Assembly (NCBI RefSeq): GCF_026015985.1
Contig: NZ_CP110389.1
Coordinates: 2,326,001-2,390,000 of the forward strand
DNA from: Rhodopseudomonas sp. P2A-2r
GTDB taxonomy: Bacteria; Pseudomonadota; Alphaproteobacteria; Rhizobiales; Xanthobacteraceae
Reading direction: 5' to 3'
Length of the DNA: 64,000 bases
This document shows positions 2,203 through 27,607 of the stretch, piece by piece; positions within the stretch are counted from its first letter, which is position 1, and the number at the start of each line of letters is the position of its first letter. The position numbers were made by a program, and so were the translations under genes. The notes under the pieces were generated by a model. That model was given only the letters and a program-made list of their open reading frames with translations. It was not told the origin of the DNA and did not search any database.

Positions 2203-3041
2203 GGGTCCGGACCCAATAGCCGGATTCCCCTGGCAGCCTGATCGTGATTCACTGCCTCATCGAGGAGGCGGTGAGATGGGTGATTTTTTTGGTTTTCCGA
2301 TGCGCAGTGGGCTCGAATTGAGCCGCTGCTTCCGACCGGCGTGCGCGGCAAGCCCCGGGTAGATGATCGTCGTGTGCTAAGCGGGATCGTCCATGCCCTG
2401 CGCTGTGGCGGCCGTTGGGCCGACTGCGCCGACGTCTATGGGCCAAAGAAGACGCTTTATAACCGGTTCGTCCGCTGGTCCGAACGCGGCATCTGGCAAG
2501 GCATTTTCAGTGAGCTGGCGGGAGCAGGCGATGCGCCGGACCGGCTGTTCATCGACAGCAGCTGCATCAAGGTTCACCGCTGCGCAGGCGGTGGAAAAGG
2601 GGGCCTTGGCTCATGGTATCGGCCGCACGAAAGGCGGACGAAACACCAAGCTCCATGCGGTCTGCGATGAAAAGGGGCGCCCCTGCGTCCTGCTCCTGAC
2701 GCCCGGAAACGTTCACGATTGCAGGGTTGCGCAGCTCTGCATCGAGGCGATGCCACCGTCGGCCGAACTCGTCGCGGACAAGGGATACGACAGCCAGGCG
2801 CTGCGCGAGTGGTTGGTCGAGCGTGGCACCGAGCCCGTCATTCCCCCGCGCAAGAGCCGCAAGATCCAATACGATTACGACCGCGCCATCTACAAGCAGC
2901 GCAACGTCATCGAGCGTATGTTCTGCCGCTTCAAAGACTGGCGACGCATCGCCACCCGATTCGACCGCAACGTCCGAAACTTCATGAGTGCCATCAGCCT
3001 CGCCGCAGCCGTCATCTGGTGGCTGTAGTGAGTCCGGACCC
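2203..3041 (+). mobile_element. IS5-family (IS427-group type) insertion sequence, complete ends
   Basis: An 839-bp element bounded by inverted ends GGGTCCGGAC (left, from 2203) and GTCCGGACCC (right, to 3041). TA lies on both sides (2201-2202 and 3042-3043) inside a CTAG context, the usual target and 2-bp duplication for this group. It carries one transposase gene split over three frames, so it is probably not autonomous as written. Confidence 0.85.
2276..3028 (+). pseudogene. IS5-family DDE transposase, frame broken at two places
   Basis: Cut-and-paste DDE transposase for the surrounding element. The ATG at 2276 opens MGDFF, then frame is lost in the T7 run at 2284-2290; an eighth T would give MGDFFWFSDAQWARIEPLLP and continue into the next frame (GKPRVDDRRVLSGIVHALRCG, FIDSSCIKVHR). 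A second jump occurs at the G5 run around 2600, after which KGGRNTKLHAVCDEKGRP, VADKGYDS and the C-terminal YKQRNVIERMFCRFKDWRR segment follow to the stop at 3026-3028. IS427-group elements may use frameshifting between two frames, so the second break could be natural; the first is not expected in the family. Confidence 0.8.
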
Positions 3042-4166: not shown

Positions 4167-7100
4167 GTGGTGTCGAAACGATCGGGCAGGTTGGTCGGGA
4201 ATCAGGCTCGGCGTCCTGCCAATGCGCAGGCTTTACGACGTACATTGCTGCTGGCGACGACCGCGCTGACCGGCTGCTTGATGATCGGTCAGGCGCCGGC
4301 GCAGACCCTGCCGACCGGCGGTAGCGTCGCCGCCGGCAGCGTGGCGATCACGGCCCCTTCCGCGACACAGCTTACCGTCACCCAGACAAGCCCGAGCGCA
4401 GTGGTCAACTGGCAGAGCTTTTCGATCGGCCAGGGTGCTGCGGTGACCATCCAGCAGCCGGGCAGCACGTCGGCGCTGCTCAACCGCGTCACCGGCGACA
4501 CGCCGTCGAGCATTGCCGGCGCGCTGACCGCCAACGGCCAGGTCTATCTGGTCAATCCCAACGGCATCGCCATCACCTCGACCGGCACGGTCAACACCGG
4601 CGGCGGCTTCGTCGCCTCGACGCTGGGCATTTCCGATGCCGACTTCCTCAGCGGCAAGCGCAGCTTCACCGGCAATGGCGCCTCCGCCGAGGTCAGCAAT
4701 GCCGGCACCATTACGGTCGGCCGCGGCGGCTATGCCGCGCTGATCGGCGGCACGGTGTCGAACGCGGGCAGCATCTTCGTGCCGCTCGGCAAGGTCGGGC
4801 TCGGCTCGGGCGAAAGTGCGACGCTGGATTTCTCCGGCGACGGATTTTTGCAGGTGGCGCTGCCGACCGCGGCCGGCGGCACCAATGCGCTGATCCGCAA
4901 CGCCGGCTCCATCAAGGCCGATGGCGGCAGCGTGATCATCAGTGCCGCGACCGCACGCGAGGCGGCGCGCAATGCGGTGAACATCTCCGGTCTGGTGCAG
5001 GCGCGAACCATCGGCGGTCGCACCGGCGCGATCTTCATCGGCGGCGGTGCCGGCGGCGGCGTCAACATTTCCGGCAAGCTGATCGCGACCTCGCGTCAGG
5101 CCAGCGGCGGCGCCATCGCGGTGACCGGCCATACCATCGCGCTCGAAGGCGCCAGCATCGATGCCTCCGGCGCGACCGGTGGCGGCACCATCAACATCGG
5201 CGGCGGACGCCAGGGCGAAGGGGCGCTGCAACGCGCCCACACGCTCACCGTCGATGCGCAGACCACGATCCGCGCCGACGCAACGACCAGCGGCAATGGC
5301 GGCGCCATCGTGCTGTGGTCGGACCAGCTGACGCGCTTTGCCGGCACCATCACCGCACGCGGCGGCGCATCGTCCGGCAACGGCGGCGAGGCCGAAGTCT
5401 CCGGCAAGGCGCAGCTCGCTTACACCGGCTTCACCGATCTCTCGGCGGCTCATGGCAGCTTCGGCACGCTGCTGCTCGATCCCTACAACGTCATCATCTC
5501 GAACGGCGCCGATACCGGCGGTTTCGATGCCACCAGCAACGACAGCGTCATCAACGCGACCACGCTGATGACGGCGCTCGGCGCCGCCAATGTGACCATC
5601 ACGACCGGCTCCGGCGGCACGCAGGCCGGCAATATCACAGTGGCGGCGCCGCTGACCTGGTCGGCACCGACCGTCCTCGGGCTGAACGCAGCCGGCGCCA
5701 TCGCCATCAACGCGCCGATCACCATCACCGGGGCCGGCGGCCTCGACCTTAATGCCACCGCGCAGGCGGGTGTCACCACCACCGGCCTGACCTTCGGCAA
5801 CGGCGCCTCGGTGGATTACGGCGCCACTGACAACGGCGGCACGTTTAGCCTCAACGGCATTACCTATAAACTGGTCTACACGATGGCGCAGCTCGATGCG
5901 ATCGACGGCGTCAACGCCGTCAATGGCACGGCGCTCACGACCTATGGGACCGGCGTCACCGGTACCTATGCGCTCGCTAACGACCTGATCGCCACCGGCA
6001 CCACCTACACCCGGGCCGTCGTCGCGGACTTCGCCGGTTTCAGTTCGGCGTACACGTTCAGCGGCAAGCTCGACGGTCTCGGCCACACCGTCACCGGCCT
6101 CACCATCAATGCGCCGACAAAGGACCAAGTTGGATTGATCGGCTATCTGGCCGGCGGAACGGTGTCGAACATCGGCATCGTCGGCGGCCAGGTGGTCGGC
6201 CGCAGCAACGTCGGCGGGCTGGTCGGCAACGTCGGCACCGGATCGGTGGTGCAGACAAGCTATGCCAGCGCGACGATTGCGAGCGTGGGGACCGGCAACT
6301 CCACCGGCGCCCTGGCGGGGGTCAACCTGGGCACCGTGCAATCGAGTTACGCCAATGGCGCGGTGACCGGAGGTTATTATGCCGGCGGCCTCGTCGGGTA
6401 CAATTTCGGCGGCACGATCAGGACCAGTTACGCGACCGGACAGGTCAAGGGCACGTTCAACACCGGCGGGCTGGTCGGACTGAGTACCGGAACGGTCGTC
6501 GACAGCTATGCCACCGGCTCCGTCTGGGGCGGCGACCAGGCGGGCGGCCTGCTCGGCACTAACAGCACCGGCGGCTCGGTGCAGAAGACCTATTCAACCG
6601 GCATGGTCTCGGGCACGACCAATGTCGGAGGACTGATCGGCTCCAACTACGCGACAGTCGCTTCGTCATACTGGGATTCCGAAACCAGCGGGCGATCCGC
6701 CGGCATGGGCTCCGATAGCCGCAACCAGTCTGCCAACGTCACGAGCCGGACCACGGCGCAGTTGCAGAGCGGCAGCGTTCCGTCAGGCTTCGGCACAGCC
6801 TGGAGCAGCGGCGCCGGGTTGTATCCCTATCTGAGCTGGCAGTTCGTCGCCGGCACCACGCCGCAGACCGTGTCCGGCATCGCCTATCAGGCGGACGGCG
6901 CGGCGCTGGCCGGCGCTTCGGTCGCCGGCACAGTCAACGGCACCGCGCTTCCCGGCGTTCGCGTCAGCACCGGCGCCGACGGCTATTATTATTTCGTAAT
7001 CCCGCAAGGCTCAATCGTCGCCGGCAATGACGTCTTCACCGACGTCAATAGCAACACCATCAAGGCCAACTCCTTTCTTCAAGGTGCGACCGGGTCGGTG

Positions 7101-8312
7101 CAAAACCTAGATCTCCACGGCGGCATGCTGACCGTCACGACCGGTGCCACCGCACTGTCGTCGGTCGCTGCGGGATTGGCGAGCGTGGTCGGCGCAACGT
7201 CGACCGGCAATCTTGTTTTCACCACGCCCGGCGGCGTACTGACCCTGAACGCCGCGACCGGACTGTCGATTGCGGCCACCGGCGCGTTCAGCATCGACCA
7301 GGCTCTCACCGTGCCCAACTCCGCACTCATCCGCGCGGCCGGCAGCCTCAGCATAGCCTCGACCGGAACAGTGAGTTCGTCGACCGGCAACGCGACGCTG
7401 GTTGCAGGAACCAATTTCATCAACAGCCGCGGCGCCGACGCGGTTTCGGCGGCGAACGGCCGCTGGCTGGTCTATTCGGTGGATCCATCCAACGACAACC
7501 GTGGCGGGCTGGTCTACGACTTCAAGCAATATGCCGCCAGCTACGGTGTGACCGCGGTGGCGCAGGCGACCGGCAATGGCGTTCTCTATACCGTCGCTCC
7601 GATGATCGGATTGAACGGAACGTTCTCCAAAACCTATGACGGCACCACGGATGCGGCGCTTTCATCATCCAATACGGGCATTGACGGCGATGTGATCATG
7701 CTCGGTTCGTCGGGTGCGGTCTACGACAACGCCAATGCCGGGTCCGGCAGGATCGTTGCGGTCAACGGCCTGACGATCAGTTCGGCCAGCAATGGCCGCG
7801 CCGCGGTTTACGGCTACACGCTCGCCTCGACGACCGCTTCAAGCACCGGCACCATCTCACAACGTGCGATCACGGTGACGGCCGACGCCCAGAGCCGGGC
7901 CTACGGCGATGCCAATCCTGCGCTGACCTATCAGGTGACCGGCGGAAGCCTGCTCGGTAGTGACGTCTTCGCCGGTGCGCTGGCGACGGCGGCGACGGTG
8001 GCTTCGGATGTCGGCAGCTACCAGATCAGCCAGAACACGCTGACGGCGGGCAGCAATTATGCACTGACCTATCGAGGTGCGAATCTGAGCATCACGGCTC
8101 CTCCGGTGACTCCACCTCCGATCACACCGCTTCCGAGTACGGCTGTTCTCAACTTTCCTGCAGCCAGCACGGTGGCGAACCTGAGTGGAACGGGCGGCAG
8201 CTTCAGCCCAATTTCTTTTGGTAGCCCGACCGGCACGACTCCCATGATCGCATCCAGCACCGAACCTTGCTGTACCGGCTTGTTCTACCAGGACAAGCGG
8301 TTCGGTCCATAA
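4167..8312 (+). CDS. Two-partner-secretion exoprotein (TpsA; haemagglutinin-type), orphan copy
   Basis: A 1381-residue secreted beta-helical exoprotein. A GTG start gives an extended signal peptide (LLLATTALTG...APAQ, cleavage near residue 46), then the TPS secretion domain with VVNWQSFSIG and the NPNGI motif near residue 130, which is the part recognised by a TpsB pore. GLUG-type repeats (GGLVG...SYATG) fill about residues 660-850, a YDG-type segment (FSKTYDGTTDAAL) lies near 1150, and one MBG module (AQSRAYGDANPALTY) near 1240-1310. The last ~70 residues are proline/serine-rich. No tpsB is adjacent; the nearest is at 16632-18356. Residues about 125-500 are encoded by a repeat colinear with the gene at 11499-16613. 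Likely surface adhesin; substrate unknown. Confidence 0.85.
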   Translation: MVSKRSGRLVGNQARRPANAQALRRTLLLATTALTGCLMIGQAPAQTLPTGGSVAAGSVAITAPSATQLTVTQTSPSAVVNWQSFSIGQGAAVTIQQPGSTSALLNRVTGDTPSSIAGALTANGQVYLVNPNGIAITSTGTVNTGGGFVASTLGISDADFLSGKRSFTGNGASAEVSNAGTITVGRGGYAALIGGTVSNAGSIFVPLGKVGLGSGESATLDFSGDGFLQVALPTAAGGTNALIRNAGSIKADGGSVIISAATAREAARNAVNISGLVQARTIGGRTGAIFIGGGAGGGVNISGKLIATSRQASGGAIAVTGHTIALEGASIDASGATGGGTINIGGGRQGEGALQRAHTLTVDAQTTIRADATTSGNGGAIVLWSDQLTRFAGTITARGGASSGNGGEAEVSGKAQLAYTGFTDLSAAHGSFGTLLLDPYNVIISNGADTGGFDATSNDSVINATTLMTALGAANVTITTGSGGTQAGNITVAAPLTWSAPTVLGLNAAGAIAINAPITITGAGGLDLNATAQAGVTTTGLTFGNGASVDYGATDNGGTFSLNGITYKLVYTMAQLDAIDGVNAVNGTALTTYGTGVTGTYALANDLIATGTTYTRAVVADFAGFSSAYTFSGKLDGLGHTVTGLTINAPTKDQVGLIGYLAGGTVSNIGIVGGQVVGRSNVGGLVGNVGTGSVVQTSYASATIASVGTGNSTGALAGVNLGTVQSSYANGAVTGGYYAGGLVGYNFGGTIRTSYATGQVKGTFNTGGLVGLSTGTVVDSYATGSVWGGDQAGGLLGTNSTGGSVQKTYSTGMVSGTTNVGGLIGSNYATVASSYWDSETSGRSAGMGSDSRNQSANVTSRTTAQLQSGSVPSGFGTAWSSGAGLYPYLSWQFVAGTTPQTVSGIAYQADGAALAGASVAGTVNGTALPGVRVSTGADGYYYFVIPQGSIVAGNDVFTDVNSNTIKANSFLQGATGSVQNLDLHGGMLTVTTGATALSSVAAGLASVVGATSTGNLVFTTPGGVLTLNAATGLSIAATGAFSIDQALTVPNSALIRAAGSLSIASTGTVSSSTGNATLVAGTNFINSRGADAVSAANGRWLVYSVDPSNDNRGGLVYDFKQYAASYGVTAVAQATGNGVLYTVAPMIGLNGTFSKTYDGTTDAALSSSNTGIDGDVIMLGSSGAVYDNANAGSGRIVAVNGLTISSASNGRAAVYGYTLASTTASSTGTISQRAITVTADAQSRAYGDANPALTYQVTGGSLLGSDVFAGALATAATVASDVGSYQISQNTLTAGSNYALTYRGANLSITAPPVTPPPITPLPSTAVLNFPAASTVANLSGTGGSFSPISFGSPTGTTPMIASSTEPCCTGLFYQDKRFGP
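4539..5665 (+). repeat. Left arm of a ~1.13-kb inverted repeat shared by the two tpsA genes
   Basis: Matches 15130-16256 on the opposite strand. I compared both boundaries and several internal stretches base by base and found no mismatch and no length difference; not every base was checked. First mismatches outside are at 4538 and 5666. Similarity continues beyond both ends at a lower level. Confidence 0.85.
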
Positions 8313-8442
8313 CCGGCCGCCGCGGCGCTGTCGTGTCGCTCGCGCCGTCTCGTGCTCCGCATCGGCATATTCGATGCGGCGCCTTACATTACACGTCGAT
8401 CTCTGCATCGCAGACGGTAGGGTCTGATGCGCATCGACAATA

Positions 8443-8458
8443 TATTCACCCGTGAATA
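8443..8458. other. Short palindrome between convergent genes
   Basis: TATTCAC-CC-GTGAATA lies between the end of the orphan tpsA gene and the end of the autotransporter gene. Its AT-rich arms, two-base spacer and lack of a T tract make it a poor terminator; it may be a protein-binding site or chance. Confidence 0.3.
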
Positions 8459-8474
8459 AGCACGGTCTGGCCAA

Positions 8475-11254
8475 TTACCAGTCGTAACGCATCACGCCTT
8501 TGCCGGCGTAGCTGCGGGTGAATTCAGAGAACTCGCCCTCGAAGGTCGCAGCCAGCGAGATGCCGCTGGTGAAGCGCATTTCGGCGGACGCCGTCGTCAG
8601 CGCAGAATCGCGCGCAGGAGCCGCACCGTTCACCACGAACGCCGTGCCGGGCAGGGTCTGAAAGGCGGCGGCGACGCTGCGTTCGATATTGTAGTCGTGA
8701 GCCCAGGCGGCGCGGCCGCGCAGGGTCAGGACGGCGGCGTTGACTGCAAACGATTTGTCGCTGCGCAGGCCGAGTTCGCTGCGTGTCGCGGTGACGATCT
8801 TGCCGGCGTAGGTCAGCGCGAACGTGTTGATGCCGCCCGCAGCAGCTTCCGTGTAGCCCGGAAGATCTAGCGCGGTCACTTGCACGGCAGCATAGGGCGT
8901 GACGCCGACGCCGCCCAACCGCGGTAGCGCATAGCGGTTGCCGCCCTCGATACGGCCTGAATATGTGTTGGCGTTGAAGCGGGCCTGCAGCGCGCTGCTG
9001 CCAACGGTGCGATCGGTGGTGGTGTCCTGCCAGCCATAGGCGGCGGCGATGTAAGCCGAGCCGATACTGTTGCGTACGAAGGCGCCCGCCTGGAAAAGGT
9101 CCGAGCGGCCCGACCCCGCACCCGCCACCGAAAAGCTGCTGCCGCCGCCGGCCAGCGCGAAGCCGGCGACAGTGGCCGGGGATAACCAGTAGTCAGCGCC
9201 GACCGCCCCGCCTTAGATCCGGCTGGTGCCGGTATTCGATCCGGTTGCGACGTTGCCGTCGGTGCTCTGCTGGCCGCCGAAGCCTGCCGCCCACACGTTC
9301 CAGCGCGCCTCGAAAGCCGGCGCTATCGGCGCCTTGCGGTCAATCGCGGCCAGTGCGTCACTGGGATTGTGCTTCGCCGTTCGGTCGCGTGTTGGATCGG
9401 CAAAGGACGACACGCCGCTTGCGTCGCGCCCGGCGGCGAGCGGGTCGGTCATCAATCCCATGAACTGAGTCGTGGCGTCGAAGGCGGTCTGCTGCGCCCC
9501 GGTCGCGGTCTGGCCGGAGACCTGCGTCAGGCCGGTCGCCGTGAGCGCGCCGAACGCCAGCGGAATGCCGCCGGTGCGGTTGAAGTAGTTCACCAGCGTG
9601 TTGGCGACCTGCTGCTGATTGACGGTCAGCGCGTTGAAGCCCGAGTCCGGCGTCGGCGGCAGATAACGCAGCGTCAGATTGAGATAAGCGTGGGTGGCGT
9701 CGGTGACGAGCGACGACGTAAAATTCGCCGGCAGGTTGGTGTTGACCTGCGTGCCGAATGTGCCGACGACGCCCCCGGCTGCGCTCAGGATGGTGTACTG
9801 CCTGGCGACGTAACTGCCGTTGGCATAGGTCACGCTGACGGTGGCACCGCCGAGGGTGGCCGTGCCGGTGATATTGGCGAATGAAGCGGTGGCGGGATCG
9901 ACCTGCACCAGATATTGCGCGGTGGAGGTCAGCGTCAGATTGCCCGTCACCGTCATCGACGATGCCGCGGTGCCGTCGCCCGGCGCGAAGGTCCCTCCGT
10001 TGCCGGTCACGAGATTGGCGATCGTGCCGTTGCCGGTCAGCGTGCCGCCGTCGATCCTGGCGGTCCCCCGATCGAGCCGGTGTTGTTGACGATACCGGCC
10101 GTGTTGGTAAGGCCTCCGCTGAGCGTCCCGGCATTGTTCGTGGTGCCGCTGTTGGTCAGGAGGCCCGACACCGTGGCGCCGGCAGCATTATTGAAGGTGC
10201 CAGAATTGGCCACCATGCCAGTCCAGGTGCCACTGTTGGCGATGGTGCCGGCATTGCCGGCGACATTCCCCGTCCAGATGGCCGCGGCGGCGTTGACGAT
10301 CGTCCCGCTGTTGGCGGTGACGTCGCCATGCCATTGCGATCCCGCCTCATTCTGGATGCTGCCGGCGTTGCCGCTGACATTGCCGGTCCAGACCGCAACC
10401 ACACCTCCGGAAGTCCTGTTGTAGATGGTGCCGCCATTGGCAAGCACGTCGCCGGTCCAGCGGCCGTTGGTGTTGTAGACGTTGCCGCTGTTGCCCGCGA
10501 CGTTGCCCGTCCATGTGCCGGAGTTCTGCAATGTCCTGCTGTTGCCCAGAACCGAGCCCTGCCAGTTACCGTCGTTGCCGACCAAGCCGTTGTTGCCCTG
10601 GACATCGCCTACCCAAAGCCCGTTGCCGCCGTTGAACACCTGGGTGAACCGGCCAGAGCCGCTGTTGCCCACCACATTGCCGGTCCAGGTGCCGCCATTG
10701 TTCAGGACGTAACTGGCATTGCCGCTGATGTTGCCGAACCATGCACCGCCGTCATTGGTGACGAAGTCCGAATTGCCGTTGATATCGCCATGCCAGGTGG
10801 CGCCCGCAGCATTGGTGATCCGGCCATTGGACCCGACCACGGCGGGAACGGGATCTGCAGGATTGCCGTTTCCGGTGATGTCGCCGTTCAGCCAGGTGCC
10901 GTAATTGACAATCTGGGACCGGTTGGACTGAATCCCGCCATCCCAGGTGGCACCCACATTGTTGGCGATGAGGTGGGTGTTGGACACGATGTTTCCGGTC
11001 CAGTAGCCGGACGGGTTGTTCGCGATCGTGCTGCTGTTGCTGAGGACATCGCCGGCATAGGGCCCGCTGTTGGTGAACGGCGTCGTGTTGCTGATATCCG
11101 CAGCGCGCGTAAGCGTGGCGCCGGAGAGCAGCGCAACGGCAGCGACTCCTGTGAACAGCATCGACCGCCGCGGGCCTGCCTCGTACGTGCCGCGCGCGGC
11201 GCCGAAGCAATCACCGTCGCCTTGCACGGGCGAACCGGCCTTCGACATCTTCAT
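8475..11254 (-). pseudogene. Type Va autotransporter (beta-helix passenger plus barrel), broken by one indel and one stop
   Basis: One ~925-residue autotransporter in three pieces. From ATG at 11254: signal peptide (MLFTGVAAVALLSGATLTRA), then a passenger of ~20-24-residue beta-helix repeats of the form GTWTGNVVGNSG. At the C5 run 10065-10069 the frame shifts; one extra base would join IGG to TARIDGGTLTGNG and on through GGTFAPGDG. A second interruption is a TAA (9213-9215 on the + strand) where the flanking sequence SRI-GGAVGADYWLSPATVAGF expects an aromatic residue. The barrel follows and ends in the typical aromatic terminus (VMRYDW). The gene lies 244 bp after the TpsA operon gene on the same strand. 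The indel may be sequencing error; the stop looks like a real substitution. Confidence 0.8.
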
Positions 11255-11260
11255 GAGCGC

Positions 11261-11281
11261 TCCCCGGAGTGCGTCCGGGGA
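11261..11281 (-). promoter_or_regulatory. Hairpin covering the autotransporter ribosome binding site
   Basis: TCCCCGGA and TCCGGGGA form a perfect 8-bp stem with loop GTGCG, only 6 bases before the ATG of the autotransporter. Read on the minus strand, the 3' arm contains CGGGGA, the only purine-rich Shine-Dalgarno candidate, so folding would hide it. A regulatory role is inferred from position. Confidence 0.4.
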
Positions 11282-11498
11282 CTGCGGACGCTACCTCGAT
11301 ATTCTCCCAGAGATTCGACGACGACGTCAGGGGCCATGGCGATTTCTCAACAAAAGTCTGGCCGCGCCGTGGCGAGCCGCGAAAAGTTGGCGAGCCCACG
11401 TCCGCGGGCGAAGCAATCCAGAGGCTGCGAGCGACGACTGGATTGCTCCCTCGCAAGAGCTACCAAAATGGCGGCGTGAAGCATCCGCGAAGCGACCG

Positions 11499-14400
11499 CT
11501 ATCGCCCGGCAGGTTTCTTCTTTCGCTTGGTCTGGGGCCCAATGCTTCCCGTCACGATGTCATCGTCGCTGGTCCGCCGCGCAGCGCTACGCGTGGCGGA
11601 GCCGGACGTGCTGACCGCCGTTGTCGGCGTCCCGGCCAGCGGCGTCACGATCGTCGTGGAGCGTTGGTCGATCTGAAAGCTGATATTCGACTGTCTTGTT
11701 GTCGACGTATCCGCCGGCGCCACCACAAAGGGCGCCACTGTCGAGGTTTCTGTCGAGCTGGCCGTCGTCGTTGTCGGGGGCGTCGATACTGTCGTTGCTG
11801 GCGCGGGCGCGGCGTTCACCACGAGATTGGCGCCGGTATAGGCGATGGCATAGTTCGGGTTGCGCCCGTTGATCAGCGTGCCCTGCGCGATCGCGTAGGC
11901 ACCCGCCGCCGAATCCGACGCCGCAGCGGTGACCAGGCTGCCCGACAGACTGTCGCCGTTGACCAGCCCGCTGCCGCCGACCGTGTAGCTCAGCGCCGGA
12001 TTGGCGTCGCCATAGGCCCGGCTCTGCGCATCCGCCGTCACGGTGATCGCCCGTGCCGTGACGGTGAGGTTGGCCGCGGCGTAAGTCAGCGCATAGTTGC
12101 TGGTGGCTGCGACAGAGCCCTGGCCGATGGCGTAGCTGCCGGCACCGGTTGCGGCGGTGGCGCTGCTGGTCAGGCTGCCCGACAGGCTGTCGCCATTGAC
12201 CAGGCCGCTGCCGCCGACCGTGTAGGTCAGCGCCGGGTTGGCGTCGCCATAGGCCCGGCTCTGCGCATCGGCCGTCAGGGTGATCGCCCGCGCCCTGACG
12301 GTAAGGTTGGCGGCGGCGTAGGTCAGCGCGTAGTTGCTGTTTGCGAGGGTACCGAGCGTGATACCGTAGCTGCCGACACCGGTTGCGGCGGTGGCGCTGC
12401 TGGCCAGGCTGCCCGACAGGCTGTCGCCATTGACCAGTCCGCTGCCGCCGACCGTATAGGTCAACGCCGGGTTGGCATCGCCATAGGCCCGGCTTTGCGC
12501 ATCGGCCGTCACCGCGATCGCCCGCGCCGTGACGGTGAGATTGGCTGCAGCGTAGGTCAGCGCATAGTTGCTGTTGGCGAGGGTGCCGAGCGTGATGCCA
12601 TAGCTGCCGACGCCGGAGGCGGTAGTGGCGCCGCTCGTCAGGCTGCCCGACAGGCTGTCGCCGTTGACCAGGCCGCTGCCGCCGACCGTATAGGTCAGCG
12701 CCGGGTTGGCATCGCCATAGACCTTGCTCTGCGCATCCGCCGTCACCGTGACCGCGCGCGCAGCAATGGTGCCGGTTGTCGCGCCCAGGGTGTAGCCATA
12801 GACCGTGGCGCCGCCATTGGTGGCGGAGGTCATCGTCAACCCGTTGACGGTGACCGTCTTGCCGGTCCCGGCGTTGGCATTGTCGTAGGCTGCCGTCGTG
12901 TAGCTGAGGCCGATCACGTCGCCATCGAGGCCGCTCGCGGTCGACGCCAGCGTCGCGCCGGTGCCGCCGTCATAGGTCTTCGAGACGGTGGGCGTGACGG
13001 TCGGGGCCACGCTGTAGAGGAAGCCGTTGCCGGTGGCCTGCGCCACCGCTGTCACGCCGTAGATCGCGGCGTATTGCTTGAACGCGTAAGCGAGACCGCC
13101 GCGGCCGTCGTTGGATGGATCCGCCGAGTAGACCAGCCAGCGGCCGTTGGCGGCCGAAACCGCATCAGCGCCGCGCTGATTGACGAAGCTCGATCCCGCC
13201 AGCGTCACGTCGCTGCTCGTGGAGGACACGGAGCCAGTCGCGGCGATGGTCAGGCTGCCCGCAGCGGAAAGCCGCACGGCGTCCGCCACCGCAAGCGTCT
13301 GGTCGACGGTGAACGCGCCGGAGGCCGCGATAGAAACGCTGGTCCCTCCGTTTGCAGTCAGCACGCCGCCCGGCGTCGAGAACACCAGATCGCCGGTCGG
13401 CGTGATGCCGATCACACTGGCGAGCGAGGACGCCACCGACGACAGCGTGGTCGCCGCGGTGCGCACGGTCAGCGTATTGGCGTTGAGGTCGAGATTCTGC
13501 GTCGGGTTGACGCCGGACACATAGGCGTTGGACTTCACCGCGTTGCCGGCAATGTCAACGAACAGGCCGCTGCCGATCGACGTCGAGCCCTGCGGCAGCA
13601 GGAAGTAGTAGTAGCCGTTAGCGCCGGTTTGGATCGTCGCCAGCGCAGTGCCGCTGAGCGTGCCGGCGATGGTGGCGCCGGCCAGTGCCGCCCCATCGGC
13701 CTGGTAGGCGATACCCGACACCGCCTGCGGCGTCGAGCCAGCGGCAAACTGCCAGCTCAGATACGGATAGAGCCCGGCGCCGGTGCTCCAGACCGAGCTG
13801 CCGAATGCCGTGGGAAGGATGCCCTGCAACTGCGCCGTGGTCAGGCCGATCCCGCCGCCGGCCGCCGCCGAGATGCCGGAGGTCTGCGTGTCCCAATAGG
13901 AGTTGGAAATGACATTCGGTACGGTGGAATTGTTGCCGCCAACAAGGCCGCCGACAGCGACGGTGCCGGTGACAGTGCCGGTGGCGTAGCTGGAATCCAC
14001 GGAGCCGGTCGGGCCGTTCAGCCCGACGAGCCCTCCGGAGTTGGTGGTGCCACTCACCGCGCCGGTCGCATAGCTTGCCCGGATGGTTCCTGGATTTTGG
14101 CCGACCAAGCCGCCGATGCGATTACCCGTCGCACTCACCGAGCCCGTCGCATAGCTGGTCTGGATGGTTCCTGTATTCGTGCCGACCAGTCCCGCGGTAT
14201 TCTGGATGCCGCTGACGGTGGCGGTCGCGTAACTGTTGGTGACCATGCCGCCATTGGTGCCGGCCAACCCGCCGGTGCTGTTGATCCCGCTGACCGTGCC
14301 GGTTGCGTAGCTGTTGGTCACCAGGCTGAGTGCGGATCCCCAGCCGAGCAGGCCGCCCGTGGCGGTGTAGCCGGTCACGTTACTGCTGGCATGGCTGGAT

Positions 14401-16613
14401 TGAATCAGGCCGGTGTTGAAACCGACCAGCCCGCCGGCGTTGACCCCATCAGCTGTACGTGACTGCACCACGCCGTCGGTCACCGTCGTCGAGATGATGG
14501 TTCCCAGCGACGCCACGGTGGCGCTGGCGAAACTGTTCTGCACGACCCCGCCGTTGAGCCAGCCGACCAGCGGAGCAACGTTGCTTTTCGCGGTGAAGGT
14601 GCCGCCGACCACGCGGATGTTCGAAACGCTGGACTCCGCGCCATTCACGTAGCCCAACAGACCTACCCACGCGAGGCCGGGCGCGTTGATCGTCAGGTCT
14701 GTGACGGTGTGGCCGAGTCCGTCGAACCGCCCGGTGTACTGAGTATCGACATCGTTGCTGCTGTTGGTGCCGATCAGCGCGCGGGTATAGGTGGGCCCGG
14801 CGGCGCTGAGGTTGGTGGCCAGCGCGTAGTTGCCGGACAGGCCGGTGCCGTACTGCGCCAGCGCGCTGCCGTCGATGGCGTCGAGCGCATCGATCGCATC
14901 GAGCTGCGCCATCGTATAAACCAGCGTGTAGGTGGTGCCGTTGAGACTGAACGTGCCACCGTGGTCGATGGCGCCGAAGTCGACCGAGGCATTGTTGCCG
15001 AAGGTCAGCCCGGTATTGGTGATGCCGGCCTGCGCGGTGGCATTCAGCGCCAGGCCGCCGGCGGCGGTGATGGCGATCGGCGCGTTGATGACGATGGCGC
15101 CGGCTGCATTCAGCCCGAGGACGGTTGGCGCCGACCAGGTCAGCGGCGCCGCCACTGTGATATTGCCGGCCTGCGTGCCGCCGGAGCCGGTCGTGATGGT
15201 CACATTGGCGGCGCCGAGCGCCGTCATCAGCGTGGTCGCGTTGATGACGCTGTCGTTGCTGGTGGCATCGAAACCGCCGGTATCGGCGCCGTTCGAGATG
15301 ATGACGTTGTAGGGATCGAGCAGCAGCGTGCCGAAGCTGCCATGAGCCGCCGAGAGATCGGTGAAGCCGGTGTAAGCGAGCTGCGCCTTGCCGGAGACTT
15401 CGGCCTCGCCGCCGTTGCCGGACGATGCGCCGCCGCGTGCGGTGATGGTGCCGGCAAAGCGCGTCAGCTGGTCCGACCACAGCACGATGGCGCCGCCATT
15501 GCCGCTGGTCGTTGCGTCGGCGCGGATCGTGGTCTGCGCATCGACGGTGAGCGTGTGGGCGCGTTGCAGCGCCCCTTCGCCCTGGCGTCCGCCGCCGATG
15601 TTGATGGTGCCGCCACCGGTCGCGCCGGAGGCATCGATGCTGGCGCCTTCGAGCGCGATGGTATGGCCGGTCACCGCGATGGCGCCGCCGCTGGCCTGAC
15701 GCGAGGTCGCGATCAGCTTGCCGGAAATGTTGACGCCGCCGCCGGCACCGCCGCCGATGAAGATCGCGCCGGTGCGACCGCCGATGGTTCGCGCCTGCAC
15801 CAGACCGGAGATGTTCACCGCATTGCGCGCCGCCTCGCGTGCGGTCGCGGCACTGATGATCACGCTGCCGCCATCGGCCTTGATGGAGCCGGCGTTGCGG
15901 ATCAGCGCATTGGTGCCGCCGGCCGCGGTCGGCAGCGCCACCTGCAAAAATCCGTCGCCGGAGAAATCCAGCGTCGCACTTTCGCCCGAGCCGAGCCCGA
16001 CCTTGCCGAGCGGCACGAAGATGCTGCCCGCGTTCGACACCGTGCCGCCGATCAGCGCGGCATAGCCGCCGCGGCCGACCGTAATGGTGCCGGCATTGCT
16101 GACCTCGGCGGAGGCGCCATTGCCGGTGAAGCTGCGCTTGCCGCTGAGGAAGTCGGCATCGGAAATGCCCAGCGTCGAGGCGACGAAGCCGCCGCCGGTG
16201 TTGACCGTGCCGGTCGAGGTGATGGCGATGCCGTTGGGATTGACCAGATAGACCTGACCATTGGCGGTGAGCGAGCCGGCAATGCTCGACGGCGTGTCGC
16301 CGGTGACGCGGTTGAGCAGCGCCGACGTACTGCCCGGCTGCTGGATAGTCACCGCCGCGCCATGGCCGATCGAAAAGCTCTGCCAGTTGACCACCGCGCT
16401 CGGGCTGGTCTGCGTGACATTGAGCTGGGTCGATGAAGGCGATGCGATCGCCACGCTGCCGGCGGCGACGCTGCCACCGGTCGGCAGAGTCTGCGCCAAG
16501 GCCTGGCCGATCATCAGGGAGCCGGTCAGCGCGGTGGTCGCCAGCATCACGGCACGTCGCCGGGTATCGCGGCGGGAGGCGCACGCGTGGGAGAGGCTGG
16601 CCGGTCGTTGCAT
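11499..16613 (-). CDS. Two-partner-secretion exoprotein (TpsA) paired with the upstream TpsB
   Basis: A 1704-residue secreted exoprotein. It has a signal peptide (VMLATTALTGSLMIGQALAQ), a TPS secretion domain with NPNGI, then GLUG repeats (about residues 650-910), carbohydrate-binding-like spacers, a YDG-type segment (SKTYDGGTGATL) and four tandem MBG modules (11818-12762). The tail is Thr/Ser-rich and very basic at the end (KRKKKPAGR). Its ATG lies 18 bases after the TpsB stop with AGGGAA as ribosome site, so the two form an operon: TpsB exports this protein across the outer membrane. The secretion domain is repeated in the orphan gene 4167-8312, while the passengers differ. Probable adhesin; target unknown. 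Confidence 0.87.
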   Translation of the reverse strand: MQRPASLSHACASRRDTRRRAVMLATTALTGSLMIGQALAQTLPTGGSVAAGSVAIASPSSTQLNVTQTSPSAVVNWQSFSIGHGAAVTIQQPGSTSALLNRVTGDTPSSIAGSLTANGQVYLVNPNGIAITSTGTVNTGGGFVASTLGISDADFLSGKRSFTGNGASAEVSNAGTITVGRGGYAALIGGTVSNAGSIFVPLGKVGLGSGESATLDFSGDGFLQVALPTAAGGTNALIRNAGSIKADGGSVIISAATAREAARNAVNISGLVQARTIGGRTGAIFIGGGAGGGVNISGKLIATSRQASGGAIAVTGHTIALEGASIDASGATGGGTINIGGGRQGEGALQRAHTLTVDAQTTIRADATTSGNGGAIVLWSDQLTRFAGTITARGGASSGNGGEAEVSGKAQLAYTGFTDLSAAHGSFGTLLLDPYNVIISNGADTGGFDATSNDSVINATTLMTALGAANVTITTGSGGTQAGNITVAAPLTWSAPTVLGLNAAGAIVINAPIAITAAGGLALNATAQAGITNTGLTFGNNASVDFGAIDHGGTFSLNGTTYTLVYTMAQLDAIDALDAIDGSALAQYGTGLSGNYALATNLSAAGPTYTRALIGTNSSNDVDTQYTGRFDGLGHTVTDLTINAPGLAWVGLLGYVNGAESSVSNIRVVGGTFTAKSNVAPLVGWLNGGVVQNSFASATVASLGTIISTTVTDGVVQSRTADGVNAGGLVGFNTGLIQSSHASSNVTGYTATGGLLGWGSALSLVTNSYATGTVSGINSTGGLAGTNGGMVTNSYATATVSGIQNTAGLVGTNTGTIQTSYATGSVSATGNRIGGLVGQNPGTIRASYATGAVSGTTNSGGLVGLNGPTGSVDSSYATGTVTGTVAVGGLVGGNNSTVPNVISNSYWDTQTSGISAAAGGGIGLTTAQLQGILPTAFGSSVWSTGAGLYPYLSWQFAAGSTPQAVSGIAYQADGAALAGATIAGTLSGTALATIQTGANGYYYFLLPQGSTSIGSGLFVDIAGNAVKSNAYVSGVNPTQNLDLNANTLTVRTAATTLSSVASSLASVIGITPTGDLVFSTPGGVLTANGGTSVSIAASGAFTVDQTLAVADAVRLSAAGSLTIAATGSVSSTSSDVTLAGSSFVNQRGADAVSAANGRWLVYSADPSNDGRGGLAYAFKQYAAIYGVTAVAQATGNGFLYSVAPTVTPTVSKTYDGGTGATLASTASGLDGDVIGLSYTTAAYDNANAGTGKTVTVNGLTMTSATNGGATVYGYTLGATTGTIAARAVTVTADAQSKVYGDANPALTYTVGGSGLVNGDSLSGSLTSGATTASGVGSYGITLGTLANSNYALTYAAANLTVTARAIAVTADAQSRAYGDANPALTYTVGGSGLVNGDSLSGSLASSATAATGVGSYGITLGTLANSNYALTYAAANLTVRARAITLTADAQSRAYGDANPALTYTVGGSGLVNGDSLSGSLTSSATAATGAGSYAIGQGSVAATSNYALTYAAANLTVTARAITVTADAQSRAYGDANPALSYTVGGSGLVNGDSLSGSLVTAAASDSAAGAYAIAQGTLINGRNPNYAIAYTGANLVVNAAPAPATTVSTPPTTTTASSTETSTVAPFVVAPADTSTTRQSNISFQIDQRSTTIVTPLAGTPTTAVSTSGSATRSAARRTSDDDIVTGSIGPQTKRKKKPAGR
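11818..12762 (-). repeat. Four tandem MBG modules, period 234-237 bp
   Basis: The GDANPAL codons recur with first matching bases at 12706, 12472, 12238 and 12001, giving spacings of 234, 234 and 237 bp (78-79 residues). Units are highly similar at DNA level, so unit number could vary by slippage or recombination. Confidence 0.85.
15130..16256 (-). repeat. Right arm of the ~1.13-kb inverted repeat shared by the two tpsA genes
   Basis: Partner of 4539-5665 in opposite orientation; see that entry. The 9.46 kb between the arms carries the 3' part of each tpsA gene and the whole autotransporter. Confidence 0.85.
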
Positions 16614-16631: not shown

Positions 16632-18356
16632 CTAGAATCTGAACGCCGTCACGACCAGAAACCGGTCAGCGGCAGCGACGCCGTCATTGCGCGTGGTGCG
16701 CGCGTATTCGAGTGCGAGCGAGCCGTTCGACAGGGTGCCGGGCACGGAACCACCGAAGCGGACGCCGCCGCCATAGGAGGTCGCGGCAATCCGCGCCGCC
16801 TCCAGCGCCGTCGGCTGCTGCAAATTCACTTCGCCGTAGGCGCCGAACACGTAGGGCGCGGCGACGACGCCGACCGCGGTGGTCGGCAACGGCACGGTCC
16901 AGGGCGACGAGACTTCGCCACGCGCGACATAGCCCTGATCGCCGACGATGCTGCCGGCATCGAAGCCCGACAGACTCGACGTGTTGGCGATGCCGATCTG
17001 CTCGCTGCGCAGCAGCGCCTGGCCGAACGAGGTCTGCGCCCGCGCGGTGACCTGAACCGCGAGATGATCGTACAGCCGCTGGGAATAGCCGAGCGCAGCG
17101 TCGAGCTTCTGGAACGAAGCGTCCGCGCCCTGTCGCGACAAGGGCAGCAATGCGCTTGCGCTCGCCGCCGAGCGCGCGCCGAGCGCATCGAGGCCGAACG
17201 AGCCGGTGACGCGGCCGGAGATCGCAGCGCCCCACGGCGTCAGCACGTCGCCGTCATTGGTGAAGCGAATGATGCGCAGCTTGTCCTGCGACAGCGCCAC
17301 CGGATCGCCGCCGATAAACAGGCTCTGCACTTCGTCCTGCGCGTCGAACGACACTTCGCTGTTGAAATTGGCGGCGCGCCCGCGCAGCCAGGCGTAGCGC
17401 AGCCGCAACGACAGCCGCTGGAACGTATCGGTGGTCTGGATGCCCTGCACCGCGCGCGGCGTGGTTCGTGCATCGGTGCCCTCGGCGTTGAACGTCAGGC
17501 CATCGACCCACAGCGGCACGATGACGCCTGCTGCCAGACCGCGGTTGGTGGGATAGCGCTCGAAAAAGCCGTTGCCGCCATCGAATTCCGGATGCCCGTT
17601 GGCGCGCAGATAGATCAGCTCGCCGAGACCCGCAATGCTGTTGAAGTCGACGCCGGCACCGACCGTGGTGCGGCCGAGCGCCGCCGACAGCGCGTTGTCG
17701 AACGTCAGAATGGCGCTGACGGGCTGGTACTTGGCCTCGATCACCAGCACGGTGGCGCCCTCGCTCTTCCCCGGCGCCAGCGTCGAACGCAGCAGCGTGC
17801 CCGGCGTATCGCCGGCCAGCAGCACGCGGCGTTCGAGTTCCACCAGCGTCACGCCGCGGCGGCCGACCAGCGGCTCCACCAGGCTGGCGATGCGCGAACG
17901 CACGCGCTCCGGCACATCCTTGAGTTCGATCCGCTCGATAAAGCCATCGACGACCGTGAGTTTGAGGCGTGCACCGTTGGCGAGATGCTGCGGCGGCAAG
18001 ACCACACGCACCAGCACGTAGCCCGCCTTGGCATAGGCCGCTTCGAGATCGCGCGCGGCGGCGAAAATCTCCGCGCCCGACACCGAACGCCCGACCAGAC
18101 GACGCTCCAGCTCGGCGGTCGCCGCCGCCAATGCCGGCAGCGCGCCCTTGATCTGAACGCCGGAGATCCTGACGGAGAGTTTTTCGGCGCCGCTCGGCGT
18201 GGCTAAACCGCCGCCACCCTGCAGGGCGAAGCCACCCTGTCGCTCTAAACTCGGTCGAAAACTTGGTGGGGTAATTTGCGAAGCTGTCTGCGCTTGCGCG
18301 ACAGCAGGCAGCATTGCCAAAAACGCGATGAAACCGCGCAAGCTTTTCGACAGCAC
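16632..18356 (-). CDS. Two-partner-secretion outer-membrane transporter (TpsB, ShlB/FhaC type)
   Basis: A 574-residue Omp85-superfamily pore that exports the TpsA encoded just downstream. Visible parts: signal peptide ending AVAQAQ (about residue 22), a POTRA_2-type periplasmic domain at about 58-140 (LSVRISGVQIKG ... YAKAGYVLVRVVLPPQ), then a beta-barrel from about residue 200 ending in the aromatic C-terminus AFRF expected for assembly by the BAM machinery. Length is normal for the family. The start used is GTG at 18356, which places a signal peptide directly at the N-terminus; its ribosome site is weak. It is the first gene of the operon TpsB-TpsA and may also serve the orphan exoprotein at 4167. 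Confidence 0.9.
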   Translation of the reverse strand: MLSKSLRGFIAFLAMLPAVAQAQTASQITPPSFRPSLERQGGFALQGGGGLATPSGAEKLSVRISGVQIKGALPALAAATAELERRLVGRSVSGAEIFAAARDLEAAYAKAGYVLVRVVLPPQHLANGARLKLTVVDGFIERIELKDVPERVRSRIASLVEPLVGRRGVTLVELERRVLLAGDTPGTLLRSTLAPGKSEGATVLVIEAKYQPVSAILTFDNALSAALGRTTVGAGVDFNSIAGLGELIYLRANGHPEFDGGNGFFERYPTNRGLAAGVIVPLWVDGLTFNAEGTDARTTPRAVQGIQTTDTFQRLSLRLRYAWLRGRAANFNSEVSFDAQDEVQSLFIGGDPVALSQDKLRIIRFTNDGDVLTPWGAAISGRVTGSFGLDALGARSAASASALLPLSRQGADASFQKLDAALGYSQRLYDHLAVQVTARAQTSFGQALLRSEQIGIANTSSLSGFDAGSIVGDQGYVARGEVSSPWTVPLPTTAVGVVAAPYVFGAYGEVNLQQPTALEAARIAATSYGGGVRFGGSVPGTLSNGSLALEYARTTRNDGVAAADRFLVVTAFRF

Positions 18357-19350: not shown

Positions 19351-19975
19351 CTGCGACGGCAAACGTTATCAGCAACAGCAGCCTTACTTCGTAACTTACG
19401 ATCTGGAGACAAATCACTTCGTATTTGAAAATCCCGGTGGAAACAAACTACCCGGTGAGATCATCGCGGAAAGTGACGCAAGACTGGACCTCAGCCTGAG
19501 GGCCGACGGCGGGCGTATTCTTCTTTCCTTCAATCGCAAGCGCAACGTGATGACGTGGCCGGGAATGCCCGCCAGTGAACTGGGAAGGGCTTTACTGCAA
19601 CACGACTGCACGGAGGTCGCTGGCAGAACGATGCTTTCAGCATTCTGGCAACCAGAGCAATTTGATCCTAAGCGTCTCGACCCGGTGGACGCCTTTTCGC
19701 TAACCTGCCCCGGCCAGTACGGACAATATTTCGTCACTTTGGACCGCTCCACAAGAACGGTAGTCCTAGAGACCCAAGCTTCCGACCAGACGATGTCAGG
19801 TAACATCGCTGGGATCAACGATGGCTCAATTAGATTCGGGGTCGCTGGTCGCTCGGGCCAATTTGAACTTCTGTGGGATGATCGCACGCGAATGCTTACT
19901 TGGATTGGCGTTGCAGATAGTGCGGCAAGGCCGACAATTAGTCACGAATGCAGCGTCACAGGGCCTCGATCAATC
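19328..19975 (+). pseudogene. Hypothetical protein gene split by IS66 copy 1 (5' part also truncated)
   Basis: The frame encodes two similar beta-rich halves, each with a Phe/Leu/Val pattern ending in a WPG or WIG turn (MTWPGMPASE, LTWIGVADSA), suggesting a duplicated domain of unknown function. The 5' edge abuts an IS481 fragment, so the natural start is missing. At 19975 it is cut by IS66, which supplies a false end. Across the insertion, after removing one copy of the 8-bp duplication, the frame continues in phase at 22480 with MESYAQLARWRQM and stops at 22519-22521. No function can be assigned. Confidence 0.55.
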
Positions 19976-20055
19976 GTAAGCGTCGTCCCGGCCCCACCTT
20001 TCGGTTGACGTGCTGATCTGCGACGTTTCGTTTCGTTCGAACCGCTAGGCTTAGA

Positions 20056-20496
20056 ATGGACACAGTGGATAGTGCTATCACCAAGCCGGTTCGGCGGCTG
20101 GAGGTGTTCACCGGTGCGGGGCGCCGGCGGACATGGAGCGACGAGGACAAGGCGCGGGTCGTTGCGGAAATCGAAGCCAGTGGCGACTCTGTTTCTGGCG
20201 TGGCACGGCGGCACGGATTGTCGCCGCAGCAATTGTTTGGCTGGCGCCGGCGAGTCAGGGAAGCTCAGGCGGTCGTTTCGAAGGATGATGAACCACGGTT
20301 CGTCCCGGCGGTGGTTACCGCGGCACTGTGCGAGACTGCGGGATCTCGACAGCGCAAGGCGCGGCGGCAGCAGCGGGACGAACCGCTTGGCGGAACGATC
20401 GAGGTTGCGATCGACGGCGTGACGGTGCGCATCGGCGCGGGCGCTCCGTCGGACACCATCGCCGCGGTGTTGCGGGCGCTGAAAGCCGGAGCGTGA
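20056..20496 (+). CDS. tnpA: IS66 accessory protein TnpA
   Basis: A 146-residue helix-turn-helix accessory protein of IS66 elements, required with TnpB for transposition though its exact role is unknown. The DNA-binding region is RRTWSDEDKARVVAEIEASG followed by VARRHGLSPQQLFGWRRR (about residues 20-65). The C-terminal half (IDGVTVRIGAGAPSDTIAAVLRALK) is typical. Its TGA overlaps the GTG of tnpB (GTGA), so translation is coupled. Confidence 0.9.
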   Translation: MDTVDSAITKPVRRLEVFTGAGRRRTWSDEDKARVVAEIEASGDSVSGVARRHGLSPQQLFGWRRRVREAQAVVSKDDEPRFVPAVVTAALCETAGSRQRKARRQQRDEPLGGTIEVAIDGVTVRIGAGAPSDTIAAVLRALKAGA

Positions 20497-20849
20497 TCGG
20501 CCCGACGGGCGCGGTCCGGGTGATGGTGGCGACCAGGCCTGTGGACTTCCGCAAGGGCGCCGATGGGTTGGCGGCCCTGGTGCGGGAGAGCATGGCGGCG
20601 GATCCGTTCTCGGGCGCAGTCTACGTGTTCCGCGCCAAGCGCGCGGATCGGATCAAGCTGGTGTATTGGGATGGCACGGGTCTGTGCCTGTTCGCCAAGC
20701 GGCTGGAGGACGGCATCTTCCGCTGGCCGAAGATCGAAGATGGCGTGATCCATTTGTCGGCCGCGCAATTGTCGGCGCTGCTCGAAGGGCTGGATTGGCG
20801 GCGTGTCCACGCGGCGCGCGAGACGGTGACGCCGGCACAGCCCGGCTAA
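20493..20849 (+). CDS. tnpB: IS66 accessory protein TnpB
   Basis: A 118-residue IS66 Orf2-like protein. The family signature VMVATRPVDFRKGADGLAALV, then FRAKRADRIKLVYWDGTGLCL and KRLEDGIFRWP, is complete. GTG start at 20493 overlaps the tnpA stop by four bases. It functions with TnpA and TnpC in transposition of the element; its biochemical role is not established. Confidence 0.9.
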   Translation: MIGPTGAVRVMVATRPVDFRKGADGLAALVRESMAADPFSGAVYVFRAKRADRIKLVYWDGTGLCLFAKRLEDGIFRWPKIEDGVIHLSAAQLSALLEGLDWRRVHAARETVTPAQPG

Positions 20850-20928
20850 CGCCTGGACGTTTGTTGCTGTGGCAAAGTGAATCAGCAGCATCGAGCACGT
20901 CGCAAAATGCTGGTAAACATGATCTGAT

Positions 20929-22458
20929 TTGATCATGCCGCGCGACGCATTGCCCGATGATTCCGAGACCTTGAAAGCGATGCTGCTCGCCGAGCGGGTG
21001 CAGAACGAACGGCTGCGTCAGATCATCAGGGACCTGCAGCGCCACCAGTTTGGCCGCCGGGCGGAGACGCTGCCCGAGGACCAGATGCAGCTCGGTTTGG
21101 AAGACGTCGAGCAGGCGGCGGCGCGTGACGTCGCGGAAGCTGAGCAGGCGACACCGGCCGCACGACAGGCCGGAGCTGCGAAGCGTCGGGCCAATCGCGG
21201 CGCGCTGCCGGCGCATCTGCCGCGGATCGAGACCACCATCGATATCGACGACAAGACCTGCCGCTGCTGCCAGGGCGCGTTGCACCGGATCGGCGAAGAC
21301 AAGAGCGAGCGGCTGGATATCGTGCCGGCGAAGTTCCGGGTGCTGGTCACGATCCGGCCGAAATACGCTTGTCGCCAATGTGAGGATGGCGTCGTGCAGG
21401 CCCCAGTGCCGGCGCGGCTGATCGAGGGTGGGCTTCCGACCGAAGCCACCATCGCCCAGGTGCTGGTCTCCAAATATGCGGATCATCTGCCGCTGTATCG
21501 GCAGGCCCAGATCTATGGCCGCCAGGGCGTCAACCTAGACCGCTCGACGCTGGCAGACTGGGTGGGGAATGCCGCCTGGCATCTGCGTCCGCTGCACCAA
21601 CGCCTGCTCGACAAGCTCAGAGAGCGGCCAAAACTGTTTGCCGATGAGACGACGTTGCCGGTGCTGGATCCTGGTCGTGGTCGCACCAAGACCGGGCAGT
21701 TGTGGGCCTATGCCGCCGACGACCGGCCATGGAACGGATCCGAGCCGCCAGGCGTGGCCTATGTCTACGCGCCGGACCGCAAGGCCGAGCGGCCGATCGC
21801 CCATCTCGACAGCTTCAGGGGCATCTTGCAGGTCGATGGCTATGCCGGCTACCGCCGGCTGGCCGAGCGCGGCGACGTGCAGCTGGCGTTCTGTTGGGTC
21901 CATGTGCGGCGCAACTTCTACAAGCTCGCCACACCCGGACCTGCGCCGATCGCCAGCGAAGCACTGCAGCGCATCGCCGCGCTTTATGCGATCGAGAACG
22001 ACATCCGCGGCCGCAGCGCCGAGGAGCGTCGGACCGTGCGGCAGCAGAAAAGCCGCTCGCTGGTCGACGCATTGGAGAGTTGGCTGCGCGCAAAACTCGG
22101 GCTGATCAGCCAAAAGGGCAAGCTCGCGGAGGCAATCCGCTATACGCTCTCGCGCTGGGAGGGTTTGGTCCGCTTCCTCGACGATGGCCGTATCGAGCTC
22201 GACAACAACGCCGTCGAGCGTTCTATCCGCCCGATCACGCTGAACCGGAAAAATGCCTTGTTCGCGGGCTCTGACGGAGGTGCCGAGCACTGGGCCACCA
22301 TCGCCTCGCTGATCGAGACCTGTAAACTCAATGATATCGATCCGCTCGGCTACCTGACAGACGTCCTTACCAGGATCGCCAGCGGTCATCCCAACCGCCA
22401 CATCGACGCGCTCTTGCCGTGGGCCTACCAAAAGCAAGACCTCAGAGCCGTGGCCTGA
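20929..22458 (+). CDS. tnpC: IS66 transposase TnpC
   Basis: A 509-residue DDE transposase. It has an N-terminal leucine-rich coil (LLAERVQNERLRQIIRDLQR), a basic linker, a Cys4 zinc finger (CRCCQGAL...CRQCEDG, about residues 115-155), the catalytic core with FADETTLPVLDPGRG (first D), QVDGYAGYRRL (second D) and DNNAVERSIRP (final E), and the IS66 C-terminal tail ending near the right terminus. Start is TTG at 20929 or ATG at 20935. It looks intact and could be active. Confidence 0.92.
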   Translation: MIMPRDALPDDSETLKAMLLAERVQNERLRQIIRDLQRHQFGRRAETLPEDQMQLGLEDVEQAAARDVAEAEQATPAARQAGAAKRRANRGALPAHLPRIETTIDIDDKTCRCCQGALHRIGEDKSERLDIVPAKFRVLVTIRPKYACRQCEDGVVQAPVPARLIEGGLPTEATIAQVLVSKYADHLPLYRQAQIYGRQGVNLDRSTLADWVGNAAWHLRPLHQRLLDKLRERPKLFADETTLPVLDPGRGRTKTGQLWAYAADDRPWNGSEPPGVAYVYAPDRKAERPIAHLDSFRGILQVDGYAGYRRLAERGDVQLAFCWVHVRRNFYKLATPGPAPIASEALQRIAALYAIENDIRGRSAEERRTVRQQKSRSLVDALESWLRAKLGLISQKGKLAEAIRYTLSRWEGLVRFLDDGRIELDNNAVERSIRPITLNRKNALFAGSDGGAEHWATIASLIETCKLNDIDPLGYLTDVLTRIASGHPNRHIDALLPWAYQKQDLRAVA

Positions 22459-22521
22459 GAACGACGCTTACGATCAATCATGGAGTCTTACGCCCAACTA
22501 GCACGCTGGCGCCAAATGTGA

Positions 22522-27598: not shown

Positions 27599-27607
27599 GC
27601 GTCGTTC

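Follow-up and report, generated by a model that had tools for sequence, protein, structure and literature searches.

The window analyzed here, a 64,000-nucleotide (nt) stretch of the genome of Rhodopseudomonas sp. P2A-2r (contig NZ_CP110389.1, positions 2,326,001 to 2,390,000), contains a locus that, judged by its predicted proteins, is a two-partner secretion (type Vb) system with one TpsB and two old, convergent TpsA paralogues (Table 1). An earlier reading of the DNA made without database searches (the sequence-only reading) had described two facing tpsA genes; both are indeed open, full-length and convergent, and both predicted products carry the TPS domain of two-partner secretion exoproteins (Pfam PF05860, 5.6e-29 and 4.5e-28). 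The predicted TpsB matches PF03865 (3.4e-22) and PF08479 (5.3e-14), giving it a POTRA domain and a ShlB/FhaC barrel. A tblastn search upstream of tpsA1 revealed no tpsB remnant, the remaining matches having E >= 0.46. Neither tpsA gene resembles a 5'-truncated silent cassette of the tpsC or cdiA-CT kind, each having its own start and TPS domain; tpsA1 begins with GTG, with AGGCGG 5 nt upstream. Over its best stretch (829 columns) blastp aligns the passengers of the two proteins at 53% identity, and they are predicted to be old paralogues, not unrelated modules.

Table 1. Features of the tpsA–tpsB locus (window coordinates)
Feature	Coordinates	Strand	Description
tpsA1	4167..8312	+	1381 amino acids (aa); TPS, Glug, YDG, one MBG_2 stretch; without adjoining tpsB
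tpsA2	11499..16613	-	1704 aa; TPS, Glug, YDG, four MBG_2 stretches; begins 18 nt past tpsB
tpsB	16632..18356	-	574 aa; POTRA_2 and ShlB; sole tpsB found at the locus
Arm 1	4539..5665	+	1127 nt within tpsA1, residues 125-499; 0 mismatches to 16256-15130
Arm 2	15130..16256	-	1127 nt within tpsA2; 0 mismatches to 4539-5665
Older paralogous stretch around arm 1	4236..6016	+	94% identical to 14779-16559
Older paralogous stretch around arm 2	14779..16559	-	94% identical to 4236-6016
Interval invertible by crossover between the arms	5666..15129	.	9464 nt by arm coordinates; contains both passengers
Interrupted classical autotransporter between the arms	8475..11254	-	PF03797 beta-domain match in 8475-9128
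Tandem MBG array of tpsA2	11859..12797	-	Four 234-nt repeats

Base-by-base alignment of the two tpsA genes revealed one unbroken run of identity, in which the 1127 nt of arm 1, read on the forward strand, match those of arm 2, read on the reverse strand, without a mismatch. This bears out exactly the limits that the sequence-only reading had given for a pair of matched inverted arms. The second-longest identical run in the alignment is 54 nt, and of the four matches to the arm in the host genome just these two are full-length. The arms occupy the same reading frame in both genes and are long enough for homologous recombination. They are enclosed by the inverted pair that window self-comparison finds to be 94% identical overall, an older paralogous match. 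The earlier description of sharply limited identity between diverged flanks also holds, since near the tract the 100-column blocks lying wholly outside it are 56-93% identical: on the 5' side (4228 to 4527) they are 80, 87 and 93% identical, falling to 30-35% further out, and on the 3' side they are 81, 80, 67 and 56% identical. The chance of 1127 identical sites is about 10^-30, 10^-63 or 10^-109 if sites diverge by 6%, 12% or 20%.

The identity extends to silent sites. In the 375 codons of the tract dS (NG86) is 0, and beside it dS is 0.37 (codons 24-124) and 0.41 (codons 500-560), so that protein conservation fails as an explanation of the tract. Deeper into the passengers dS reaches 0.82, 1.03 and 0.90. 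An identity tract with sharp limits that includes silent sites is expected of a gene-conversion pair, and these findings demonstrate that the silent sites of the tract have been homogenized between tpsA1 and tpsA2. The stepwise increase in dS away from the core is, moreover, the pattern expected if conversion recurred with ends that varied from one event to the next.

Searching proteins with TpsA2 as the query gave 2920 matches among 7982 candidates scored. Among the best 120 of the 2920, which we examined, were two proteins encoded on one contig of a related genome, which at 6,649,164 bp differs in length from the host genome of the window: P0003 (1625 aa, 98% identical) and P0040 (1355 aa). 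P0003 is the counterpart of TpsA2 and P0040 that of TpsA1, each with its own N-terminus and passenger; the two are representatives of 90%-identity clusters of 2 and 3 member sequences, and the comparisons concern the representatives. Thus N-terminus and passenger are linked alike in 2/2 genomes, with no net swap. The sequence-only reading had looked to orientation in sister strains, and the one related genome compared has the linkage of the window; this agreement neither proves nor rules out flipping, because a freely mixing switch would give it half the time.

We sorted the sites of an alignment of four proteins (those of tpsA1 and tpsA2 in the two genomes), scanned to about residue 640, into classes. 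Fixed differences between A1 and A2 occur at residues 28-119 and from 513 onward, with none in residues 120-512. The related genome's own arms differ at 5/375 residues (280, 353, 482, 483 and 485), and there the run free of A1/A2 differences is shorter at the 3' end. At residue 388 both copies in the window have L and both copies in the related genome have P, and in the outgroup rows L is found in 6/9 and P in 0/9; this one site, at the protein level and in one other genome, is a strain-specific variant common to both copies. At residues 482/483/485 the related genome's A1 is alone among the four in having T,S,S, which is also found in the separate homologues P0014 and P0016, and the window's A1 has the A2 type, S,G,T. 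On the simplest reading of these protein differences, which fit exchange between the arms, a new variant would have reached both copies at residue 388 in the related genome's lineage, and A2 sequence would have been copied into A1 at the 3' edge of the tract in the window's lineage. The A1 proteins of the two genomes differ at 5/375 tract residues compared with 2/980 outside (Fisher p = 0.02, a value that counts among the two outside differences one that is an artefact of the predicted start).

Other species of the family contain tpsA pairs that follow a similar pattern. In L024 (Xanthobacteraceae metagenome-assembled genome RYN_493, taken as the record of genome G027), which represents the nearest other species, tpsB is followed by two tandem tpsA genes. 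The core is 100% identical within the window pair, 87.5% identical within the L024 pair and 79-80% identical between window and L024, and DNA identity over residues 40-124 is 88.6% and 89.0% within the two genomes (window and L024) compared with 77-80% between them. The best blastp stretches of the passengers, by contrast, are 53% identical for A1-A2, 55% for A1-La and 51% for A2-La, so that copies are more alike within a genome in the tract and not in the passengers. From these identities the tpsA duplicates of the window and L024 look about as old as the split of the lineages, with cores that would have been homogenized within each. In a tree built from the core of 16 chosen sequences (among them L033 and L035, with L032, from the same contig as L024, excluded), within-genome pairs group by genome in 4/4 cases with support of 99-100 each. 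In the tree of residues 500-650 made from the same sequences, the L024 pair alone separates and the window pair groups weakly (71/48). The predicted C-terminus of TpsA1 (LFYQDKRFGP) is similar to that of the second tpsA of L024 (LFYVDERFGQ) and is the same in the related genome, and a frameshifted end of tpsA1 is accordingly unlikely.

The pair profiles of L024, L036 (the pair of genome G012, and the one used for this purpose of nine regions fetched) and L051 (G390:C1:6186000-6202000) all have a shared 5' module that drops to divergent passengers. In the L051 pair, eleven 100-column blocks at 93-99% identity precede passengers mostly at 31-48%, a stronger passenger contrast than that of the window pair. 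All three are direct tandems; a shared module therefore needs no inversion, and a crossover in such a pair would delete, not invert. We surveyed 391 family genomes, drawn evenly from a larger set. Matches at E <= 1e-60 turned up in 48 of them, and in 3 (the host genome G000, G027 and G390) two matches fell within 25 kb of each other, the window pair alone being inverted. These pair counts, from which G034 was excluded as two pieces of one interrupted gene, are lower bounds, because scoring was limited to 3 candidates in each genome.

Taken together, these results make it quite likely, in our judgment, that the locus undergoes recurrent ectopic gene conversion of the module recognized by TpsB, with inversion as an occasional by-product. 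Homologous recombination, probably of the RecA type, would repeatedly copy the 5' secretion module between tpsA1 and tpsA2, so that the module stays almost or fully identical and the passengers diverge. In the window's lineage the 1127 identical bases would be the trace of the most recent event, at whose 3' edge tpsB-linked (A2) sequence probably entered A1. The POTRA domains of TpsB recognize the TPS domain, and some TpsB proteins are described as secreting more than one TpsA (PMC5422565); a shared TpsB would thus favor alike modules, and selection for recognition by TpsB may maintain them. The arms being inverted, some events should end in a crossover, which would invert 9.46 kb and set each passenger behind the promoter and signal sequence of the other gene. 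Inversion of this kind would be a by-product expected at low frequency rather than a regulated switch that has been demonstrated.

Several observations weigh against recurrent conversion, or narrow it. The A2 proteins of the two genomes have no excess of differences in the tract (2/375 versus 5/1250, p = 0.67). The T,S and S,G states at residues 482/483 both occur among the outgroups, so that the direction of copying is an inference, and site 388 is a single residue, at which repeated change or an inherited polymorphism could account for the pattern. The comparison within the species comprises one other genome and proteins only. Between species, the DNA of residues 500-560 is 85% identical for A1 versus A2 and 66-76% identical to L024, outside the tract. 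Furthermore, grouping by genome persists for the L036 and L051 pairs in the tree of residues 500-650, with support of 99-100, so that these two pairs may be lineage-specific duplications. An old duplication is accordingly supported by sequence for the window and L024 pairs only, and the flank tree agrees for the L024 pair only.

The inverted arrangement lends itself to the switch put forward in the sequence-only reading, in which RecA-type crossovers would invert the 9.46 kb often, both orientations would be present in the population, and expression of each passenger would alternate between the tpsB operon and the A1 promoter. This proposal, which is compatible with gene conversion, is mechanically possible but not shown, and we think it unlikely. 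The 1127-nt arms lie in opposite orientations and share a reading frame in the two genes, and the 9464 nt between them, the length claimed earlier, hold just the passenger ends and an autotransporter; the latter, which the sequence-only reading had noted, is present but interrupted by TAA at 9213-9215 and by a frame change within about 10037-10187. Precedent exists in the hmw1/hmw2 inversion described for nontypeable Haemophilus influenzae (PMC10127715), which makes a switch plausible in kind. A Salmonella report gives inversion in 5/59 recombinants between inverted cassettes, citing earlier tuf work with as much as a quarter (PMC8262849), and on that basis the 9.46 kb should at times be inverted here too. 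What speaks against frequent flipping is the same linkage in both genomes, together with the lack of a third linkage among the best 120 of 2920 matches (a chimera might be hidden within the 90%-identity clusters); moreover, the Salmonella figures, from another organism, would scale to roughly 2e-7 per generation, which is low for phase variation. Nor does the locus resemble a site-specific inversion system, which would have an adjacent recombinase and short inverted sites, the arms here being 1.1 kb. The expectation that no dedicated invertase would be found holds for the genes scanned: among 29 distinct window open reading frames (ORFs) searched against Pfam, a part of all those in the window, in which transposases were also found, the sole site-specific recombinase is a phage-integrase-family ORF (37033-38289) 21 kb away. 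A broader proposal, which we regard as similarly doubtful, is that the TPS module serves as a recombination address tag: conversion would match it to the single TpsB, invertase-free crossover would swap the passengers of the two full-length TpsA proteins between the tpsB operon and a second promoter, and surface variants would result in the population.

Recent gene conversion had itself been named in the sequence-only reading as an alternative to flipping, and the related genome and the other species support it. They also bear on whether it recurs. A single recent copying event, whether by conversion, template switch or transfer and with no recurring process, would account for a single uninterrupted identical run with sharp ends. 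We nevertheless find it improbable, given that the related genome's arms are nearly alike too, that this genome has a substitution in both copies and a shorter difference-free 3' run, that dS climbs stepwise from the core, and that the L024 pair is likewise more alike in the module within its genome. Least probable of all, to the point of being hardly credible, is that reads of one arm were used for both. Polishing can falsely homogenize identical arms that exceed short-read length, and assembly collapse had been named in advance as what would undo the earlier proposal; but the host genome assembles as a single contig of 6,737,367 bases, long reads can reach across arms about 11 kb apart, and the arms of the related genome were resolved, with differences at 5 residues, and both carry a residue at 388 that the window's arms lack.

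Several other features of the window and its host genome touch on the locus. At the tandem MBG array of tpsA2, the related genome's TpsA2 counterpart is 79 aa shorter, about one repeat unit. The whole host genome has 9 TPS-domain matches and 2 ShlB matches, which suggests that several TpsA proteins may share TpsB transporters, and the 8 named relatives of tpsB are from Xanthobacteraceae, Bradyrhizobium, Bosea, Reyranella and Beijerinckiaceae. Upstream of tpsA1 lie a DDE_Tnp_1 transposase ORF (2393-3028) and a 33-nt imperfect inverted repeat (3162-3194/3376-3408), possibly insertion sequence (IS) remnants near the tpsA1 promoter region. A second repeat near the locus, formed by inverted 2500-nt copies at 19973-22472 and 27594-30093 (98.7% identical, the first carrying IS66-family genes), is capable of inverting about 5.1 kb. 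The region 37033-59832 is prophage-like, with the phage-integrase-family ORF, a DNA methylase, primase/helicase-like ORFs, a terminase GpA nuclease and a phage capsid.

The locus offers a compact case of how bacteria may let the exposed parts of several large surface proteins diverge and still keep their secretion address suited to a single transporter. By analogy with hmw1/hmw2, its inverted arrangement would be preadapted for surface variation that needs no invertase. That three other genomes also have paralogous tpsA pairs with a shared 5' module raises the possibility that the process is wider in the family, and the orientation of a pair may decide whether recombination can also flip (inverted pairs) or delete (direct pairs).

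In the literature searched on tpsA/hmw gene conversion and inversion, we found no title describing this arrangement. The locus is nonetheless not categorically new; it is a variation on recombining TpsA paralogues in which the locus has a single TpsB, the interval is short and the arms lie within the coding region. The hmw1A and hmw2A genes have near-identical 5' coding ends. Nontypeable H. influenzae is described as inverting about 400 kb between hmw1 and hmw2, which switches the TpsA that is expressed (PMC10127715), and in strain Hi375 the positions of the hmw paralogues are reported to be swapped relative to 86-028NP (PMC4849778). There, as here, two TpsA paralogues are involved; in the hmw reports the binding domains are divergent and inversion alters the pairing of promoter and TpsA. 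Unlike hmw1A/hmw2A, the present locus has a single tpsB, its arms are separated by 9.5 kb and sit inside coding regions, and inversion was not observed. In Campylobacter fetus, RecA-dependent inversion takes place between sapA homologues with a conserved 5' region; it moves a promoter among S-layer genes, which are not TpsA.

The tuf genes are near-identical along the whole gene, whereas homogenization is here confined to the 5' module. As described for Salmonella tuf, however, inverted duplicates are homogenized by recombination and inversions are a minority (PMC8262849, PMC5485169). In the human Y palindrome P6, rapid gene conversion is reported to keep inverted arms alike while inversions are rare (PMC3723533), an analogy of outcome only, P6 being eukaryotic and without sharing of a coding module. 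Recombination among TpsA genes and their relatives can also change the attached C-terminal part, as described for tpsA/tpsC of Neisseria meningitidis, where it is given as rare in meningococci (PMC3848433), and for orphan cdiA-CT cassettes, through recombination among tpsA-related sequences (PMC5422565). Unlike the tpsC cassettes, which are described as lying downstream of tpsA without the TPS-bearing 5' end, the two genes of the present locus are full length, and what they have in common is the 5' end.
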